Of a stretch of DNA of 64,000 nt, positions 2,857 through 28,299 are shown piece after piece. Below the pieces are notes generated by a model. It searched no databases and was not told the DNA's origin. It saw only the letters and a list, made by a program, of their open reading frames with translations. Where the stretch lies: positions 62,001 through 126,000 of the forward strand of contig JAHITX010000123.1 of NCBI GenBank assembly GCA_018817425.1, read 5' to 3'. The number at the start of each line of letters is the position of its first letter. Positions within the stretch are counted from its first letter, which is position 1. This stretch comes from Pseudomonadota bacterium. Lineage in GTDB: Bacteria > Desulfobacterota > Desulfobacteria > Desulfobacterales > RPRI01. A program made the position numbers and the translations under genes.

Positions 2857-4002
2857 ATGACGGTTACGGCAAAAATTAATATTAAAAATCAGGATATATC
2901 GGAATCCATAAGAAGTTTTCTGGAAGATATTCTTAAAACCGGAATTGTTCAGGCAATGCTTGTGCCTCAGCATCTCCCGATGAAAAAAATGGTAATGCCC
3001 ACGCTGGTAACTGATCCAAAATATTTAGAAGGTGTTGATACTCTTGCACCGGCATTTCCAATGAATGCGGCAACAATTGCCGCCAAACTCACACGCAAGC
3101 CAATTGGCGGTAAAATAGCAGCTGTATTGCGCCCCTGTGAGATCAGAGCATTTATTGAACTGGTTAAACTAAACCAGGCCCAAAAAGATGATATTATTTT
3201 GATATGCGTAGATTGTTTAGGCGCATTTCAAAATAATGACTATTTAAAATTCTTTAGTCAAAAAACAAAAGAAGCAAGCACCCTGTTTTATAAAAAGGTT
3301 ATTGAAGAAAATGCTGTTGAAATAGAAGGAGTAAAACTTGCTACAGCCTGTATGGCATGTGAACACCCGGTTTCCGAAAACGCCGATATCCAGATCGGCC
3401 TATACGGTATGAAGACTGACGAATCCTTACTGGTTAAGGCTCAATCACAAGCCGGAGATAATATATTAAAACAACTTAATCTTAGCGCCACAAATGAACC
3501 TGCGGGCAGACAGAGTGCTATCAATAATCTGATCAAACAGCGCACCGAATATAAAGATAATATGTTCGATAAAACGAAGGAAGCAACCGATAGCCTGGAA
3601 AAAATATCCGAGTATTTTGCTTCCTGCGTCAATTGCTATAATTGCCGGGTGGCATGCCCTGTTTGCTATTGCAAAGAATGTGTTTTCGTTACGGATGTAT
3701 TTAACCATGATCCTTCCCAGTATTTAAGCTGGGCTAAACGGAAAGGTATCATTAAAATGCCTACCGATACCCTATTTTATCATATCACGCGTCTGACTCA
3801 TATGAGTACGGCTTGTGTCGGCTGTGGCCAGTGCTCAAACGCCTGCCCGAACGATATCCCGGTTATGGAGCTGTTTCGTTCCATAGGCGATATCACCCAA
3901 AAGGCGTTTGATTACCAGGCAGGTCAAAGTATTGAACAAAGACCTCCTCTGTCGATATTTAATAAGGACGAATATCAAGAGGTGGTAGGAATAAACGATT
4001 AA
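2857..4002 (+). CDS. FdhB/FrhB-like iron-sulfur oxidoreductase subunit
   Basis: 381 aa, cytoplasmic. The N-terminal part resembles the beta subunit of formate dehydrogenase/coenzyme F420 hydrogenase (AAVLRPCEIRAF, ICVDCLGAF, TACMACEHP). The C-terminal third is a ferredoxin-like region with CVNCYNCRVACP, a CYCKEC stretch, and CVGCGQCSNACP. It has a strong GGAGGG ribosome site. Position between MvhD-like and HdrA-like genes suggests it links the Hdr-type complex to another electron carrier. The substrate (F420, NAD, formate or ferredoxin) cannot be told from the sequence, and an F420 role should not be assumed in this organism type. Confidence 0.8.
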   Translation: MTVTAKINIKNQDISESIRSFLEDILKTGIVQAMLVPQHLPMKKMVMPTLVTDPKYLEGVDTLAPAFPMNAATIAAKLTRKPIGGKIAAVLRPCEIRAFIELVKLNQAQKDDIILICVDCLGAFQNNDYLKFFSQKTKEASTLFYKKVIEENAVEIEGVKLATACMACEHPVSENADIQIGLYGMKTDESLLVKAQSQAGDNILKQLNLSATNEPAGRQSAINNLIKQRTEYKDNMFDKTKEATDSLEKISEYFASCVNCYNCRVACPVCYCKECVFVTDVFNHDPSQYLSWAKRKGIIKMPTDTLFYHITRLTHMSTACVGCGQCSNACPNDIPVMELFRSIGDITQKAFDYQAGQSIEQRPPLSIFNKDEYQEVVGIND

Positions 4003-4011
4003 GAGGTATTT

Positions 4012-7000
4012 ATGACCAAAAAATACGGCAAGGCTCTGGTTGTAGGCGCCGGAATAAGCGGACTTCGCACCGCTTTGGATCTGGCAGAATACGGCTATGG
4101 CGTCACGCTGATAGACAAGGCACCGAATACAGGCGGCATATTAAGACAGTTGGATTATCAATTCCCAACGGATACTTGCGGAATGTGCAAGATGCTTCCG
4201 CTGTACAATCGAGATAAAGGCTCACAATATTGTCTGCGTAAAGGTTTATTTCATGAAAATATTGAAATACTTCTTTCAACACAACTTACATCGGTTGAAG
4301 GCGAAGCAGGACAATTTCAGGCAACGGTAAGACAGCATTCTAACTGGGTTGATCCAAATCTTTGCACCGGCTGCGGTTATTGCGCCGATGTCTGTCCGGT
4401 AGAAGTACCTGACGAATTTAACGAGAATATTGGAACTCATAAAGCAATTTATCTGCCTGTTCCTCATGCCATACCGAATCCGTATATAATTGATATTTCA
4501 TCATGTACACATTGCGGGGCATGCATATCAGCTTGCCCGACAGGTGCAATTAATTTGCCGCAGGATAAACGAAAATCCTTTCGTATACTGGTAGTGGATG
4601 ATGAACTGATTATGCGTGATTCTTTAAAAGAATGGTTAATAGACGATGGGTTTTTGGTTGATATGGCTGCTTCCGGCGCCGAAGCTCTCGATAAACTGAA
4701 AGCACAAGCTTACGATTTAATGCTTTTAGATATCATGATGCCCGGCATGGATGGAGTTGAAGTACTTCAAAAAGCCAAAGAGCTTTTTGATGATCTGAAA
4801 GTAATTATGATGACCGCTTACGCAACCGTTGAAACCGCTGTTGAAGCCATGAAAATCGGGGCTCTGGACTATCTGGTTAAGCCGTTTGATCCTGATGTTT
4901 TAATCCCGATGATTGCAAAGATATTTCAGGATACCACAGCCGTTGTCGAAGAAAGGCAGCTTGAAGTAGGCGCAATCGTGCTTTGCGGCGGAACCGGTTT
5001 TTTCAATCCAAAAAGCGAAAAGAACTTGTTTGGTTATAAGGCTTATCCCAATGTTTTAACAAGCCTTGAATTTGAGCGCATGATAAGCGGAACCGGCCCA
5101 TGCAATGGTACTCTGTTACGGCCTTTCGATAATAAACCTGTAAAAAAAATAGCATGGATACAGTGTGTCGGATCACGCGATTTGCAAACCAATGCAGATT
5201 TTTGTTCAGGAATATGCTGCATGTTTTCAATCAAGGAAGCGCTGCTTGCTAAAAGATCAAGTACTCAAGATATAGAAACAACTATCTTTTATATGGACTT
5301 AAGAACATACGGAAAAACCTTTCAGCGTTACCGTAAACAAGCCCAAAATATATATGATGTTAATTTTGTAAGAGCTAAAGTTCATTCGGTTTTTCCGGAT
5401 ACAGCAACAGGTGATTTGATTGTCCGCAATATGGATATCTCCGGCAATTTGAAAGAAGAAAGGTTTGATATGCTGGTGCTTGCTGTTGGCCAGAGACCGG
5501 CGCAAGAAACATCTGAAATGGCGGAATTTCTGGGATTAGATTTAAATCAATGGGGATTCGGAAAAACCGAGCCGTTTTCGCTAACTAAAACCGGCATTGA
5601 CGGAATAACATTCGGAGGTTCTTTTGCAGGACTAAAAGACATCAGCGATTCACTTATACAAGCGTCATCGGCAGCTGTTAATGCTTCACGGATAATTCAT
5701 TCAAAAGGAGGAGAACTTTCAATAGAAGATAAGAAAAGTCCGCCACAAAATGCCCTGACAAAAGCAATCCCTAAAATTCTGACTGTAATTTGTACTTGCG
5801 GTAACAGGTTATCGCAATCAGCAGATTTAGATTATATCAGCAAGCGGCTTAAATCCGACCCCTTAGTTGAGAATATTGAATTTCTGGAACAACTTTGCAC
5901 AAGACAATCATTGGATACTCTTATAAATATAATTAAAACGTCAAATCCAAACAGACTTCTTATCGCAACATGTCTTCCCTATGTATATAAATTTAAGATA
6001 AATGAGCTTTGTAAACAAACAGGCCTTAATCCTGACTTAATTTCTATAGTTGATATAAATACTGATATATCACATTTGCTTCGCCCTAATTCCTGCGATG
6101 AAATACAACAATATAATGTTTCAGACACAAAAATATCACATGCTGTCGAACAGCGGCTTTTGTCCGTAATTGAAACCGGTATAGCAAAGCTTAAATGGGC
6201 AAATTTCTCGGAAACTCAAACAATTCCTATTTGCCAAAAAGCCCTTGTAGTAGGCGGAGGGATAGCCGGTATGACTGCTGCTATGGCAATTGCCGATCAT
6301 GGCTTTGAAGTGGATATTATAGAGCAGTCCGACGAATTGGGAGGTAATCTGAATTGGCTGAAAAAAACATTGGATGGATATTCTACAAACGAGTTGCTGG
6401 AAAAAACTCTTGATCTTGTTCAAAAACATCCGAAGATCAATACTCATACCCAATCAACAGTAACCGGCTCTTCCGGTGAAATAGGAAATTTTCATACTGA
6501 TATAAAAGATTCCGATAATCAGGTTCATACATTACAACATGGCGTAACTATTTTAGCTACAGGAGGAAGACAGGCAGACACCCAGTCTTATACTTACGGT
6601 GTAAATCCGGTTGTTATCACCCAGAAGGAATTGGAACAAAAACTTTCGGATAATACTATTGACCCTGAAAAACTAAATTCTGTGGTAATGATCCAATGCG
6701 TTGATTCCCGGCAGGAACCGCGTAATTACTGTAGCCGCGTCTGCTGTGCAAATGCCTTAAAACATGCGCTTTTTCTCAAGGATAAAAATCCCGCTATCTC
6801 GGTATATATTCTTTACAGAGACCTTATGGTATATGGTTTTCATGAAACATATTATACACAGGCCAGGAATGCGGGCATTATGTTTATACAGTATGACACT
6901 GATAATAAACCCATTGTTAATGACGAAAACAACAAAACACAAATCTCGGTGTTTGAACCGATACTGGGAAAACAACTACAAATTGAAACCGATCTTGTGG

Positions 7001-7479
7001 TTCTGGCTACAGGCATTGTGCCGAATATGCCCCGTGATTTAGCAGAAGCTTTAGGTGCATCACTTGATTGTGATAATTTTTTTCAGGAAGCGGAATCAAA
7101 ATGGAGACCGGTCGATTCACTCAAAGAAGGAGTATTTGCCTGCGGTCTGGCTCATTCTCCCCGTAATATTGCCGAAACTATTGCTACAGCAGAAGCAGCT
7201 GCCCAAAGAGCACTTGTAATTTTAAGCCATAAAAATCTGGCCGGAGGAAAGATTAGTGCAAAAGTACATCACAGTATTTGCGCTTTGTGCGAACAATGTA
7301 TTGACGCATGCCCATACGGTGCACGTAGCATAGATTATGAAAACGAACAAATTATTATCAATCCATGCATATGCCAGGGCTGCGGGACATGTGTTGCGGT
7401 ATGCCCTAATTGCGCTTCCACATTGGATGGATTCGCCACGCAGCAAATATTTGCAACAATCGATGCTGTGATCAATTAA
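4012..7479 (+). CDS. hdrA: Duplicated HdrA-like flavoprotein with embedded CheY-type receiver domain
   Basis: 1155 aa, far longer than a plain HdrA. Order: first FAD motif near the N-terminus; two [4Fe-4S] motifs (CTGCGYCADVCP and CTHCGACISACP); a complete receiver domain at about residues 191-305; the rest of the first HdrA half (FCSGICCMF); a middle region (about 575-740); a second FAD motif (ALVVGGGIAGMTAAMAI) with a second HdrA-like half (YCSRVCCAN); and two C-terminal ferredoxin motifs. The receiver keeps the acidic pair D196/D197, phosphoacceptor D240, T268 and K290, so it should be phosphorylatable. It starts 9 bp after the FdhB-like gene with an AAGAGG ribosome site. Two histidine-kinase genes follow. 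Phosphorylation control of electron transfer is inference. Confidence 0.88.
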   Translation: MTKKYGKALVVGAGISGLRTALDLAEYGYGVTLIDKAPNTGGILRQLDYQFPTDTCGMCKMLPLYNRDKGSQYCLRKGLFHENIEILLSTQLTSVEGEAGQFQATVRQHSNWVDPNLCTGCGYCADVCPVEVPDEFNENIGTHKAIYLPVPHAIPNPYIIDISSCTHCGACISACPTGAINLPQDKRKSFRILVVDDELIMRDSLKEWLIDDGFLVDMAASGAEALDKLKAQAYDLMLLDIMMPGMDGVEVLQKAKELFDDLKVIMMTAYATVETAVEAMKIGALDYLVKPFDPDVLIPMIAKIFQDTTAVVEERQLEVGAIVLCGGTGFFNPKSEKNLFGYKAYPNVLTSLEFERMISGTGPCNGTLLRPFDNKPVKKIAWIQCVGSRDLQTNADFCSGICCMFSIKEALLAKRSSTQDIETTIFYMDLRTYGKTFQRYRKQAQNIYDVNFVRAKVHSVFPDTATGDLIVRNMDISGNLKEERFDMLVLAVGQRPAQETSEMAEFLGLDLNQWGFGKTEPFSLTKTGIDGITFGGSFAGLKDISDSLIQASSAAVNASRIIHSKGGELSIEDKKSPPQNALTKAIPKILTVICTCGNRLSQSADLDYISKRLKSDPLVENIEFLEQLCTRQSLDTLINIIKTSNPNRLLIATCLPYVYKFKINELCKQTGLNPDLISIVDINTDISHLLRPNSCDEIQQYNVSDTKISHAVEQRLLSVIETGIAKLKWANFSETQTIPICQKALVVGGGIAGMTAAMAIADHGFEVDIIEQSDELGGNLNWLKKTLDGYSTNELLEKTLDLVQKHPKINTHTQSTVTGSSGEIGNFHTDIKDSDNQVHTLQHGVTILATGGRQADTQSYTYGVNPVVITQKELEQKLSDNTIDPEKLNSVVMIQCVDSRQEPRNYCSRVCCANALKHALFLKDKNPAISVYILYRDLMVYGFHETYYTQARNAGIMFIQYDTDNKPIVNDENNKTQISVFEPILGKQLQIETDLVVLATGIVPNMPRDLAEALGASLDCDNFFQEAESKWRPVDSLKEGVFACGLAHSPRNIAETIATAEAAAQRALVILSHKNLAGGKISAKVHHSICALCEQCIDACPYGARSIDYENEQIIINPCICQGCGTCVAVCPNCASTLDGFATQQIFATIDAVIN

Positions 7480-7496
7480 CACAATTATTTAATACG

Positions 7497-7638
7497 GAGC
7501 CACTTTCAAAACGTTTCAGTTTGGTCAAGGTCAAGGCGGGGGATAATTTTAACCGCAGGAATACATGGAGTATTTTGAGGATTAAAATTATCACCCAACG
7601 CAGAGATCGGGCAAAATGGGACGTTTTGAAACTGGCTC
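7497..7638 (+). mobile_element. MITE-like element, copy 1 (142 bp, forward)
   Basis: Starts GAGCCACTTTCAAAACGTTT and ends in an imperfect inverted copy (ACGTTTTGAAACTGGCTC). Flanked on both sides by the 4-bp direct repeat TACG (7493-7496 and 7639-7642). Inner arms GATAATTTTAA and TTAAAATTATC are perfectly complementary. It lies between the HdrA-receiver gene and the histidine-kinase gene and encodes no transposase. Confidence 0.9.
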
Positions 7639-7659
7639 TACGGAGATAGTATTAATAGT

Positions 7660-9153
7660 ATGCTAAAAGAAACCGGCACAAAATGGTCCGAATTAAATAT
7701 ACATACAAGTGAATACCAGACTTTGTTTGAGCTGGTCCCCTGCCTTATAACATTACAGGATAAAGAGTTCAGGCTTATTCGTTACAATCATTTGTTTGAG
7801 GATCATTTCCATCCCGAGCCAGGTGATTACTGTTACCAGGCCTATAAGAAAAGAGATTCAAGGTGTGAGAAATGTCTGGTGGCTATGACTTTCGATGACG
7901 GAAAATCGCACTATGGAGAAGAATCCAGTCTTAACAATGACGGTACATTTACATATTGGATAGCGCATACATCTCCAGTAAAAAACGAAAAAAATGAAAT
8001 TATCGCTGTTATGGAAGTTTGTCTTGACATAACGCACAGAAAAGAACTTGAAGAAAACCTGATAAAATCTGAAAAAAAATATTATTCAATATTCAACAAT
8101 ATTCCCAATCCTCTTTTTGTTCTTGATATAAATTCGCTTAATATCCTTGATTGTAATGAAAGAGTAACATCGGTTTACGGATTTTTAAAAGAAGAAATAA
8201 ATAATAAATCATTCATGGATCTCTTTATAAAAAAAGAAAAAATTGATTATACCTTCAAAATGAAAGCTTATTCAAAATTAAACCGGGTAAAACAATTAAC
8301 AAAAAGCGGAGAAACTATCATAGTTAATATAGGAATTACTCCTTCCGAATATCCGGGACAGAAAGTTTTACTTGTAGTAACAGATGATATAACAAAACGT
8401 CTCGAGGTGGAGCAACAAATAATACAGGCAGGTAAAATGGCAACTCTTGGAGAAATGGCTACAGGAATAGCACATGAACTCAACCAGCCTTTATCTGTTA
8501 TTAAAACGGTCAGTAGTTTTTTTATCCGTAAGATAAATGACAATGAGTCAATAGATCAAACCACTCTTAACAATATGCTGGTAAAAGTCGACAATAATGT
8601 TGATCGGGCATCCCGGATTATTAACCATTTGAGAAATTTCGCCAGAAAATCGGAAATAGATTTTGAAAAGGTGCAGGTTAATGAAGAACTTGAAAGGGCG
8701 TTTTCAATTTTTGCCCAACATCTCAGGGTAAGAGGTATTGAAGTGTTATGGGACACCGACAAAAGCTTGCCGATGATTATGGCTGACCCTCAAAGGCTTG
8801 AACAGGTATTTATAAACCTGTTAATCAACGCAAGGGATGCCATTGAAGAAAAATACAGGAATATGAATTCTGCCGAAGCTGAAAAGAAAATCCATTTAAA
8901 AACATATATGGATAATAATAATGTTGTCATTGAAGTATCTGATACCGGTGCAGGAATTCCTGAAGCCATATCCGATAAAATATTTGAACCGTTTTTTACT
9001 ACAAAGGAAGCCGGAAAAGGCACCGGTCTGGGTTTGTCTATCAGTTACGGGATAATCAAGGATTTCGGAGGAACAATATATTCCAGATCGATAGAGGATC
9101 AGGGAGCATGTTTTATAATCACTCTTCCTGTACAGGATAATAAAAATGGATAA
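7660..9153 (+). CDS. PAS-domain sensor histidine kinase
   Basis: 497 aa with no membrane segment, so probably a cytoplasmic sensor. Two PAS-like domains (about residues 15-130 and 140-250) precede a HisKA dimerisation domain with the phosphorylated histidine H272 in [10 protein letters not shown], then an HATPase domain ([13 protein letters not shown]-box, DTGAGIP and GTGLGL G-boxes). The first PAS region contains [15 protein letters not shown], whose cysteines could take part in metal or redox sensing; that is speculative. The upstream MITE copy separates it from hdrA. Its last 8 bp overlap the next gene, implying co-translation. A likely phosphodonor for the next receiver and possibly for the receiver inside HdrA. 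Confidence 0.88.
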
Positions 9154-12945: not shown

Positions 12946-13746
12946 TCACGAAGGTTCATTGTAATAATGCATGATCGCTTCCAAAACACTTCCGCCTATG
13001 GCACGAGCCTTTTCAGTAATAGTATAACAATATTCTTTATCGCTTCTCGGATCGATGTCTCCTATCTTTTCATTTTCCGTTACATCAATTTCGCGTATAA
13101 GCCCGCGAAGTATTCCATCAATAGCTGACGGCACCGGAGTTTTGTCCACAAAAAGTATAATATCGTCTTTGTTGATTTCATCTCCAAGTCGTTTAACATG
13201 CTTTACCTTGCCTTTATGAGGCGCACGCAATACCCGTTCTTTGGTGTAGCCTTTTGTCGGACCGGGAATACCTGTATGCGGTTCAGCCGAACCATTGTAA
13301 ATGAGCCTGCCAAGATTATGACCTCTGTTGCTTTCAATGATTACATGGGCGTTCTGGGATGCAGTAAAGCCCGGCCCAACACCTATAACCAGAGGTGCTT
13401 CATCAATTTTAGTTTTTGTAGTTCGCTTCGCCATTATTGCATCAACTACTATATCAGGCTTTATTTCACTGATAATGGTCCATGAGGGATCTACAATTAC
13501 CGCAATATTTTCTCTACCCCATACTTTATTAACTTCATCATAATTTACTATATATTCAGCCTTTACACCTTCAACTTCTTTTGTGTTCTCATATACGGCC
13601 TCGGAAAAAGCCACCATTCTTCTTACAGTAACCGGTTTTGGAATCTCGGTCATAACAATTTTTTTTAAATTCGACATATATAGTCTGCAAGCAATTCCAG
13701 TAGCCATCTCACCTGCACCCTTTATCAATATTTTAAGATCTTTCAC
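12946..13746 (-). CDS. yqeB: Selenium-dependent molybdenum hydroxylase system protein (YqeB/EF2563 family)
   Basis: 266 aa. Matches the EF2563/YqeB family found in gene sets for selenium-dependent molybdenum hydroxylases: N-terminal [15 protein letters not shown], central VIGVGPGFTA with NRGHNLGRLI, and HTGIPGPTKGYT. The start is a GTG at 13746 with an AAGGGGG ribosome site 10 bp upstream. Its presence supports selenium use by the organism, consistent with the selenocysteine gene at 26.9 kb. Its exact biochemical step is not established. Separated from the DUF364 gene by about 130 bp that include the REP-like palindrome. Confidence 0.85.
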   Translation of the reverse strand: MKDLKILIKGAGEMATGIACRLYMSNLKKIVMTEIPKPVTVRRMVAFSEAVYENTKEVEGVKAEYIVNYDEVNKVWGRENIAVIVDPSWTIISEIKPDIVVDAIMAKRTTKTKIDEAPLVIGVGPGFTASQNAHVIIESNRGHNLGRLIYNGSAEPHTGIPGPTKGYTKERVLRAPHKGKVKHVKRLGDEINKDDIILFVDKTPVPSAIDGILRGLIREIDVTENEKIGDIDPRSDKEYCYTITEKARAIGGSVLEAIMHYYNEPS

Positions 13747-25912: not shown

Positions 25913-26851
25913 ATGAAAGATGTATCAAAAACAGTTGGTTTTGAGAAAAGTAATTACTGTAAACTTATTGCGAGATATTCGGCAAGTTTAGTTGGCTGCT
26001 TGATATTTATTTTATTATCTTTTGGGGCTTTAAGAGCTGAAGCGCAATGGCCTCATGTTGTTTCTTCCAGGGATGGTACTTCTATTTCTTATGAGATGTA
26101 TGGCGCTGGCGAACCGGTTCTTGTGTTCGTTCATGGTTGGAGTTGCGATGCCCGCTACTGGCTTGAACAGCTGTCATATTTTTCTAAAAAATATCGTGTT
26201 GTAGTGCTTGATCTTGCCGGTCATGGTCAATCAGGTTTTACGCGTTCACAGTATAGCATGAAGGCTTTCGGAGAAGATGTTTGTGCGGTTGCAGAGACAA
26301 CCGGCAGTAGTAGAATTATTCTGATAGGGCATTCTATGGGCGGTCCGGTTATTGCTGAAGCTGCCAGGCTAATGCCGAACCGTGTTATTGGATTAATTGG
26401 CATAGATACTTTTGAAAACATAGAATATCCGATGACCCCAAAAGAGCTTGAGCAGATGATAGCGCCTCTGGAAAAAGATTTTTCAGCAGGATGCCGGGAA
26501 TTTGTTAAGAATATGATTTCTCCTCAAACTGATCCTGTGCTTCGTGATTGGATTCTTTCGGATATGTCAGCTGCTCCACCTGCGGTTGCCTTAAATGCTA
26601 TGAAGGAGATGATGTCACAATTTATTACAGGGGAAGCGGCTAAAATATTTGATGAGATTCGTATACCTGTTGTTACTGTGAATGCGGATTTATGGCCCGT
26701 AAATTATGAAGCAAACCGGAGGCATATGTTTTCATTCGATGCAATTGTTTTAAAAGAAGCGGATCATTTTTTAATGATGGGTCGTGTAAAAGATTTTAAC
26801 AATGCGTTGGATAAAGCAATAGATATGATTTTGCAAAAAAAGGTTGATTGA
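25913..26851 (+). CDS. Exported or membrane-anchored alpha/beta hydrolase
   Basis: 312 aa. Residues 20-45 form a signal peptide or membrane anchor (YSASLVGCLIFILLSFGAL). The fold shows an oxyanion HGW motif (VFVHGWSCDARYW), the nucleophile S141 in IGHSMGGPV, and a C-terminal histidine in KEADHFLMMG. Weak AAAGGAA ribosome site. It is followed at 87 bp by the selenocysteine-containing oxidoreductase; no functional link is proven. Substrate unknown; an esterase or lipase role is typical of this fold. Confidence 0.88.
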   Translation: MKDVSKTVGFEKSNYCKLIARYSASLVGCLIFILLSFGALRAEAQWPHVVSSRDGTSISYEMYGAGEPVLVFVHGWSCDARYWLEQLSYFSKKYRVVVLDLAGHGQSGFTRSQYSMKAFGEDVCAVAETTGSSRIILIGHSMGGPVIAEAARLMPNRVIGLIGIDTFENIEYPMTPKELEQMIAPLEKDFSAGCREFVKNMISPQTDPVLRDWILSDMSAAPPAVALNAMKEMMSQFITGEAAKIFDEIRIPVVTVNADLWPVNYEANRRHMFSFDAIVLKEADHFLMMGRVKDFNNALDKAIDMILQKKVD

Positions 26852-26937
26852 TATTTTCAAGTTAACAAATATCAGATAAACTGTTTGTTACTATCTTATA
26901 TTCATAAAAGCAAACAACCTACCCGGAGGATAAAACT

Positions 26938-28299
26938 ATGAGCACAGAAAGATTTGTTGTCATCGGAGGCAATGCTGCCGGGATGACGGCAGCAGTAAAA
27001 GCCAGACGTTTAAATAAGAATCTTGAAATTATTGTGTTTGAAAAAAGTCCTCATATATCATACGGCACCTGAGGTATTCCATATTTTATCGGCAGGTTGG
27101 TCGATAGTATTGAAAAACTGAAAGGACAAACCGTATCAGAGTTTAAGAAAAATAATGACGTAGATGTGAAATTATTTCACGAAGTAAAAGAAATCGATCT
27201 CAAAAAGGGCAAATTACTAGTTCAGGAAAAAGATAATTTAAAAGACCGTTGGGAATCCTTTGATAAACTGATGATATCAACAGGTGCTGTTCCGATTAAA
27301 CCTCCTGTTGAAGGAATAGATGCAAAAGGAATATTTGGGGTAAACAATCTTGAAAGCGGACTGGCTTTAAAAGATTATATTGAAAAAAATAAGCCTAAAA
27401 AAGCTGTAGTTATAGGTGGCGGCTACATCGGGCTTGAAATGGCTGAAAATCTGCTTTTGCTGGGAATGAAAGTCAGTCTCATAGAAAGAGCTTCTGAAGT
27501 TATGCTGACTTTAGATACTGACATGGGAGCACTTGTTTCAGATGCTTTGATTGAAGCAGGTGTTAAGCTTTATAGAAACGAAAGCCTTACGGCCTTTGAA
27601 ATCAACAAAGGCTATGTTCACTCGGTAGTAACCGACAAAAGGACATTTGAGGCCGACCTTGTTATACTTGGTATGGGCGTAAAACCGAATACTTTACTTG
27701 TTAAAGATACGGGAATAAAAATTGGAATAACAGGAGCCATTGAGGTTGACACTGCAATGCATACAACGGCTGACAATGTTTGGGCCGGAGGTGATTGCGC
27801 CGAATCTTTTCATCTGATCAGCAAAAAGCCAGTAAATATTGCTTTAGGTACCGTGGCAAACAGGCATGGCCGGGTGGTTGGGACTAATGTGGCCGGAGGA
27901 AATGCTGCTTTTACCGGCCTGGTAGGTACTGCTGTTACAAAAATAGGTAAGGTCGAAGTTGCACGAACCGGTCTTGCCGAAAAAGAGATTCAGCAAATCG
28001 GGATGGAATATATTACATCTGTTACAAAAAGCATGACCCGCGCGGATTATTATCCGAATGCAGGTCCTATCTCGGTTAAAATACTTGCTGAAAAGAAAAG
28101 CGGTAAGCTTTTGGGTGCCCAGATAGTTGGAGAAGCCGGTTCCGCTAAACGTATTGATATACTTGCAACGGCACTGCACGCTGGTTTAACGGTTGAAGAA
28201 ATATCCGATCTTGATTTAAGCTACGCTCCTCCAATTTCTCCCCTGTGGGATCCTGTAGTTATTGCCGCACGCATTGCAATGAAAAAGTTGAGTGGATAA
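26938..28299 (+). CDS. Selenocysteine-containing CoA-disulfide reductase/NADH oxidase-like enzyme
   Basis: 453 aa when the in-frame TGA at 27070-27072 (codon 45) is read as selenocysteine. The family is the flavoprotein disulfide reductases of CoADR/Nox type: N-terminal FAD motif VVIGGNAAGMTAA, second nucleotide motif AVVIGGGYIGLEMAENL, FAD-binding WAGGDCAE, and the C-terminal dimer region ending SPLWDPVVIAAR. The redox-active Cys normally sits in a CGIPYFIG context, and TGA takes exactly that place. A downstream ATG at 27097 would lose the FAD domain. Strong CGGAGGA ribosome site at the upstream ATG. A SECIS-like hairpin follows the TGA. No rhodanese domain. Physiological substrate unknown. 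Confidence 0.85.
27083..27110 (+). other. SECIS-like hairpin for Sec45
   Basis: TATCG at 27087-27091 pairs with CGATA at 27102-27106, extended by a T-G pair and two more pairs across one mismatch, around the loop GCAGGTTGGT. The loop GG at 27095-27096 lies about 23 bases after the TGA, within the distance expected for bacterial SECIS elements. Confidence 0.7.

Follow-up and report, generated by a model that had tools for sequence, protein, structure and literature searches.

The locus and its reading frame

The window analyzed here, i.e., the whole stretch of 64,000 nucleotides, contains on its forward strand a gene for a putative selenoprotein, an FAD-dependent enzyme resembling CoA-disulfide reductases (CoADR), with selenocysteine (Sec) predicted at residue 45. 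The features of the locus are as follows (coordinates, strand, feature, and basis of the assignment in parentheses).

26938..28299, + strand: predicted selenoprotein gene for an FAD-dependent, CoA-disulfide reductase-like enzyme of 453 aa in which residue 45 is Sec (sequence, profiles, homologues)
26925..26929, + strand: ribosome-binding site GGAGG, 8 nt before the ATG (read from the sequence)
27070..27072, + strand: UGA codon 45, presumably read as Sec, at a conserved Cys column (alignments)
27086..27107, + strand: predicted SECIS stem-loop with an 8-bp stem (27086-27093 with 27100-27107), 21 nt after the UGA (folding, comparison)
27094-27099, + strand: apical loop AGGUUG of the SECIS (folding)

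An earlier note on this DNA had described a frame open on either side of the TGA and a ribosome site upstream of the ATG. Both are present: the TGA at codon 45, in the context ISYGT-U-GIPYFIG, is the sole in-frame stop of the frame 26938-28299, and GGAGG precedes the start codon at the distance given above. The mechanical list of open reading frames (ORFs) has this gene starting late, at 27097; it should be noted that reading with translation table 11 either shortens the selenoprotein to 44 residues or begins it late. Elsewhere in the window TGA serves as an ordinary stop, e.g., in the gene 25913-26851. Other Sec genes in the window were sought as TGA codons with at least 30 open codons before and at least 60 after; the other 31 of the 32 places listed were either antisense to likely genes or located at gene ends and borders, as judged by eye against the ORF list. 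A search of the whole window with Rfam returned nothing at gathering scores.

Codon 45 in homologues

The codon aligned with TGA was compared in two sets of loci. The first set (110 loci) consisted of the best 80 of the 523 relatives found in a family scan of the genome collection, among the matches listed, and the 30 best loci from 59 genomes, including the genome of the window. The second set (70 loci, partly repeats) was drawn from 395 genomes of the phylum (Desulfobacterota, to judge from gene content and named relatives), among the matches listed, and from 40 fetched stretches, of which 33 had been picked for a flagged TGA, four for a flagged TAA/TAG, and three as Cys forms. In the first set, the aligned codon was TGA in 18 loci and TGC/TGT in 92, with nothing else, and the TGA was the only in-frame stop within the matched part of all 18 genes. 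The second set yielded 49 TGA codons, 19 Cys codons, and two unreadable loci (L159 stops short of codon 45, and L193 has a TGA that does not align with codon 45). Pooling gives 67 TGA, 111 TGC/TGT, and two unreadable loci (n = 180), copies included: L021 and L131 both represent the window gene, L055 is an apparent copy of L022, and some of the 70 loci are repeats. Because of these copies, and because 33 of the last 40 stretches were selected for TGA, the share of TGA is not a frequency; it is the position that counts. Every readable relative without TGA at codon 45 has Cys there, which bears out the placement of the TGA, proposed in the earlier note, on the redox Cys column of the CoA-disulfide reductase family.

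The TGA could in principle be a nonsense mutation, a sign of a pseudogene, or a sequencing error at a former Cys codon. It is one base away from TGC/TGT, and the contig belongs to a draft assembly of 147 contigs. A close orthologue is missing from nine further genomes of the genus, which are 63-98 percent complete (best identity 37 percent among the matches listed); at least four of these nine carry the neighboring zinc-transporter-like gene at 66-67 percent, so that the gene is patchy within the genus. Damaged homologues do exist: the Cys form L066 (match from 674) has an in-frame TAA at residue 39, a possible error or decay. However, TGA recurs at the same codon in many separate genomes, the frame has no other stop, the protein is conserved beyond the TGA, and the SECIS is kept. 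A pseudogene or sequence error is thus very improbable; the earlier note had likewise argued that a frameshift or pseudogene would hardly place TGA at this one codon.

Conservation was similar on both sides of the TGA. Compared to the relatives L051, L133, and L134, amino acid identity is 0.68-0.70 before the TGA and 0.66-0.69 after it, with dN of 0.20-0.24 on either side; for the more distant L056, identity is 0.68 before and 0.60 after, and dN is 0.23 and 0.33, respectively. In these comparisons dS is high or undefined, and hence dN/dS ratios are not given. The amino acid conservation beyond the UGA indicates that the downstream part is evidently translated. The four stretches flagged for TAA/TAG have a Cys codon at position 45 and no stop within the aligned part; the flagged stops sit at its edge and are therefore uninformative on decay.

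The SECIS hairpin

The earlier note had pointed to a hairpin with a GG-containing loop at the right distance from the UGA, and this hairpin is kept across Sec genes. It fits the SECIS model quoted in PMC13188914 (6-nt loop with G second, 8-bp stem, 21 nt), the bare energy excepted: the uninterrupted hairpin, at -7.3 kcal/mol, is slightly weaker than the published limit of -7.5, which is reached only with flanking bases. A 47-nt fold has -9.6 kcal/mol, and 7 of 200 dinucleotide shuffles are as good; thus, the hairpin is not striking alone, and it is comparison that lifts it above chance.

A contiguous hairpin at -7.5 kcal/mol or better was found in 14 of the 18 Sec loci versus 12 of the 92 Cys loci of the first set. 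In 14 Sec genes of clade A (the clades are listed below), the window gene included, 86.5 percent of cells pair, both partners are altered in nine cells, and covariation scores 0.237; none of 500 shuffles was as high in either the two-sided changes or the score. Two of the five measures were ordinary, with 260 of 500 shuffles for the number of pairs with two-sided change and 302 of 500 for pair types. Each of six shifts of the partners lowered both pairing and covariation; for pair types there was one tie.

A signal of this kind lies within coding sequence, and we compared it to synonymous-codon null models with the protein fixed. The 14 Sec genes form 109 of 126 possible pairs, whereas 1000 shuffles averaged 81 and never exceeded 93; the folding energies over 25 nt sum to -140, versus -56 for the null (best -86). 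This 25-nt test used a helix known in advance. Taken by itself, the window gene has P values of 0.003 for folding and 0.128 (not significant) for the pair count. In the same register, 7-8 of 9 pairs form in all 14 Sec genes versus a mean of 4.7 of 9 in Cys homologues, 12 of 92 of which likewise reach 7-8 pairs. When a 45-nt fold was picked blind to the helix, the numbers of loci with P < 0.05 versus synonymous shuffles were 6/25 for clade A, 0/3 for A2, 9/24 for B, 1/4 for C, 1/3 for D, 0/1 for E, and 8/111 for Cys forms. In several Sec loci (e.g., L139, L172, L176, L177, and L182) the 45-nt fold of minimum energy differs from the expected hairpin, and L192 shows no clear hairpin there. Taken together, these comparisons support a SECIS that is conserved in relatives with covariation, beyond what the protein requires.

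Selenium machinery in the genome

The earlier note would have given up the Sec reading had selA, selB, selC, and selD been absent. All four were found in the genome of the window: selC (75.6 bits, cut-off 47), selB (380.9 bits, cut-off 242), selA (601.2 bits, cut-off 268), and selD (383.6 bits, cut-off 125, with one in-frame TGA). Among 14 control genomes, the same cut-offs were exceeded for selC in five, selB in two, selA in one, and selD in two. The selD gene (L018, 1480 onwards) itself looks like a selenoprotein gene, with its in-frame TGA in an N-terminal GAGUASK.

An open frame across a UGA is by itself no proof of selenium, and the codon could be read, by reassignment or leakiness, as an ordinary amino acid. 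We consider this extremely unlikely: the genome has the full sel machinery, a SECIS follows the UGA, UGA terminates other genes such as 25913-26851, and Cys occupies the aligned residue in every readable relative without TGA. The Sec reading is thus supported by homologues and by the conserved SECIS, albeit from sequence.

The presence of selA was also compared between genomes with Sec and Cys forms. Among genomes with Sec forms, 15 of 16 had selA over the cut-off, compared to 11 of 23 among genomes with Cys forms, which were our own choice across phyla (24 Cys loci, with the genome of L068 left out). Within the phylum the numbers are 45 of 48 versus 22 of 23 (some genomes recur from the cross-phyla set), and the comparison is not discriminating. 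The selA-negative genomes with Sec forms are G061, G144 (weak match), G164, and G362, of which G061 and G362 do carry selB. In G061 (the genome of L054), a Sec-type gene with a strong hairpin occurs together with two selB matches over the cut-off, and selA was not found.

The earlier note had further taken a YqeB gene as an independent pointer to selenium use. The gene is real (12946-13746; TIGR03309, 342 bits, cut-off 220), and the genome also has a match to TIGR03172, which we take to be YqeC (194.8 bits, cut-off 73). The organism probably has the Se-cofactor trait as well, which is marked by SelD, YqeB, and YqeC together (PMC9312934). Because YqeB marks this separate trait, its support for Sec decoding is indirect. 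A VhuD/HdrA2-tail-like protein is encoded at 2416-2838 of the window in an Hdr-type cluster, with no in-frame TGA; FrhD and HdrA are selenoproteins listed in a table of PMC1794560.

Enzyme family and likely function

Of 68 NCBIfam models, the one for CoA-disulfide reductase, TIGR03385, scores best, with 465.3 bits over the whole length. Its curated cut-off of 578.8 bits is not reached, so that the annotation leaves the substrate unfixed. Two CoA-disulfide reductase models lead the list, with 465 and 427 bits, both below their own cut-offs; the model of the H2O-forming NADH oxidase, NF046103, gives 244 bits, under its curated cut-off of 600. Among Pfam domains, Pyr_redox_2, Pyr_redox, and Pyr_redox_dim are all above cut-off, and no match to a rhodanese domain was found in the protein by Pfam; the 453-aa chain ends after the dimerization domain. 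The same genome also encodes a Cys-type relative of 560 aa (L201, contig C1) with a C-terminal extra part that is rhodanese-like by eye; this Cys-type CoADR gene and selB (2981-4663 and 6092-8002) are about 1.4 kb apart and on opposite strands.

The closest solved structures are 3cgb (Bacillus anthracis, E 1.4e-100), 6ruz, 6pfz, and 3kd9 (Pyrococcus horikoshii CoADR, E 1e-88). The alignments to solved homologues give the fold. Residue 45 lies opposite Cys in all five structure-sequence alignments (SYAQ-C-GLPY in 3cgb), and every one of the 60 Sec and 111 Cys relatives in the family alignment has Ser41 together with Cys/Sec45 (SxxxC). Tyrosines near the C-terminus are important in CoADR. Tyr371, Tyr372, and Tyr429 of the window protein each face a Tyr in 3cgb, and columns 372 and 429 also hold Tyr in the CoADR structure 3kd9. 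All 25 clade-A relatives retain Tyr371, and all 24 readable ones retain Tyr429; Tyr371 is absent from all three members of clade D and from 12 of 24 members of clade B, and therefore substrates may differ among the clades.

Enzymes of this group are termed single-cysteine reductases in PMC6026696, where sequence alone is also described as a poor guide to substrate in this family. In relatives, a single Cys beside FAD enters into a mixed disulfide with bound CoA, and NAD(P)H reduces this Cys through FAD; their substrates are CoA disulfide, persulfides, and polysulfides (PMC6026696, PMC9405070, and PMC7969121). By analogy, the window protein most likely uses NAD(P)H to reduce CoA disulfide, CoA persulfide, or polysulfide via a Sec-S-CoA intermediate.

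A further possibility is that the selenoprotein acts as an NADH oxidase or peroxidase, with a selenenic acid intermediate, or on a selenium compound, and not on CoA disulfide, persulfide, or polysulfide. The family goes by the name of NADH oxidase in tables of PMC1794560 and PMC2398784, and the limited value of sequence for predicting substrates (PMC6026696) speaks in its favor, too. Against it are the score of the NADH oxidase model compared to those of the CoADR models (all of them under their cut-offs), the much lower rank of NADH peroxidases in PDB (E about 1e-49 versus 1e-100), and the conservation of Tyr371 and Tyr429 in clade A. We regard this possibility as unlikely, albeit far less remote than a decayed gene or a reassigned UGA. 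Of the two activities suggested in the earlier note, the thiol/polysulfide reductase gains from the 465-bit match, and the peroxide reductase appears less likely, given 244 bits for the NADH oxidase model.

The reading that we prefer, with a probability of roughly 80%, is that the gene encodes a selenoprotein of the CoADR group, an FAD enzyme with Sec45 in place of the redox Cys, decoded via SelB and the SECIS, that reduces CoA disulfide, CoA persulfide, or polysulfide. SelA would make the Sec-tRNA (selC) using selenophosphate from SelD, and SelB with this tRNA would decode the UGA at 27070-27072, aided by the hairpin at 27086-27107. The enzyme is most likely a homodimer, in which electrons would pass from NAD(P)H to FAD. 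Sec45 may attack the sulfur of the substrate, giving a Se-S-CoA selenenylsulfide that the flavin would reduce back, and Tyr429 or Tyr371 from the partner subunit may assist Sec45.

The genomic neighborhood gives no pointer to a pathway, since no conserved neighbors are shared with the flanks of the window gene in a crude ORF comparison (the window, 16 Sec loci, and 10 Cys loci, some with short flanks). Only three gene clusters were common to at least three sets of flanks, and the two largest are signaling proteins by eye.

Sec subfamilies and probable repeated conversion

The 60 Sec relatives were sorted by the peptide and the hairpin after the UGA, with offsets read by eye, into the following clades.

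Clade A (n = 25): residue after U is G (19), S (3), or A (3); most are YYVGRVVD-like; loop 21-22 nt after the UGA
Clade A2 (n = 3, two of them Desulfobulbaceae): YYVAGLVD
Clade B (n = 24): UETP, USEP, ULMP, UDLP, UPTP, and others; YYIGDV; triloop GGN about 18 nt after the UGA
Clade C (n = 4): YYVSGQI; loop GGUC about 21 nt after the UGA
Clade D (n = 3): NIADPGRD or similar; in L181 the loop lies about 27 nt after the UGA, and L192 has no clear hairpin
Clade E (n = 1): L187

In clade B (L161-L171, L173-L177, L180, L182-L186, L189, and L191), G is not among the four commonest residues after U, and the Pro of the UGxP motif is lost in 2 of 24 members. A first tree of 90 rows, which left out 19 Cys loci of L024-L050, required four changes between Sec and Cys, of which only one was forced by starred branches. 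A later tree of 61 Sec and 48 Cys rows, with residues 45-59 masked, required 11 changes, at least five of them forced by starred branches; this is a quick tree that contains three identical pairs and uses 48 of the 111 Cys loci. Copies or near-copies by eye (L055, L021, L131, L132, L135, L136, and L138) as well as L159 and L193 were dropped from the later tree and from the clade sorting. A single Sec clade is rejected on the later tree (AU test, p 1.17e-7), which means that the Sec rows do not form one side of a branch and says nothing on gain as the direction of change.

Sec forms within the phylum thus fall in several subfamilies, not in one group, and the different hairpins at different offsets fit repeated gain. 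For many bacterial selenoproteins an origin by Cys-to-Sec conversion has been proposed, the reverse being rare (PMC13188914). Repeated Cys-to-Sec conversion is likely in the CoADR family as well, the direction being our inference. A stronger version, toward which we lean with some reservation, is that the family is a hot spot: at least three subfamilies in one phylum, and probably more, would have gained Sec at the same residue independently, each with its own SECIS made from a different coding stretch (loops about 18, 21-22, and 27 nt after the UGA), and the needs of the RNA would have shaped the protein beside the active site, with some motifs outside UGxP. One enzyme site with Sec and Cys forms intermixed in the tree, and with Sec subfamilies that differ in their hairpins, amounts to a natural experiment. 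It bears on the causes and the course of the exchange of Cys for Sec, as well as on the limits that an RNA signal within coding sequence sets to an active-site loop.

Comparison with known systems

The enzyme type already appears in selenoprotein tables: an "NADH oxidase" selenoprotein of Geobacter metallireducens in those of PMC1794560 (2006), one ocean-metagenome sequence under PRK09564, with the family called NADH oxidase, in a table of PMC2398784, "FAD-dependent oxidoreductase (CoA-disulfide reductase)" with the UGxP motif as a selenoprotein family in PMC9312934, and CoA-disulfide reductase with TIGR03385 and UGxP in PMC13188914 (a 2026 catalogue). The Sec form of the enzyme is therefore not new, and the window gene is a new sequence that joins a published family, its selenoprotein nature being supported here from raw sequence. 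In the literature searched, no study of this selenoenzyme beyond selenoprotein catalogues was found. What is added here is the occurrence of Sec forms in several subfamilies, with different hairpins and offsets and with motifs beyond UGxP (UETP, USEP, and ULMP).

Compared to the single-domain CoADR of B. anthracis (3cgb) and P. horikoshii (3kd9/4fx9), the window protein aligns over the full length, with the FAD/NAD and dimerization domains, and shares Tyr at columns 372 and 429; these enzymes have Cys at the position of Sec45. The persulfide reductases and CoADR-rhodanese fusions (Archaeoglobus fulgidus 6pfz, B. anthracis 3icr, and Enterococcus faecalis 8a56), with their CoA-linked persulfide chemistry (PMC9405070 and PMC7969121), are homologous in the reductase half, whereas their rhodanese domain is absent from the 453-aa window protein. 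The catalogue family "FAD-dependent oxidoreductase (CoA-disulfide reductase, NADH oxidase)", represented by WP_011365774.1 and with a metagenome member assigned to PRK09564, is alike in TIGR03385/COG0446 and in Sec within UGxP (PMC9312934 and PMC13188914). The window gene is nevertheless a separate sequence: its nearest Sec relatives, L051, L133, and L134, are 66-68 percent identical to it, and the Sec forms of Geobacteraceae (L062 and L063, Geomobilimonas luticola) are about 57 percent identical to the window protein.
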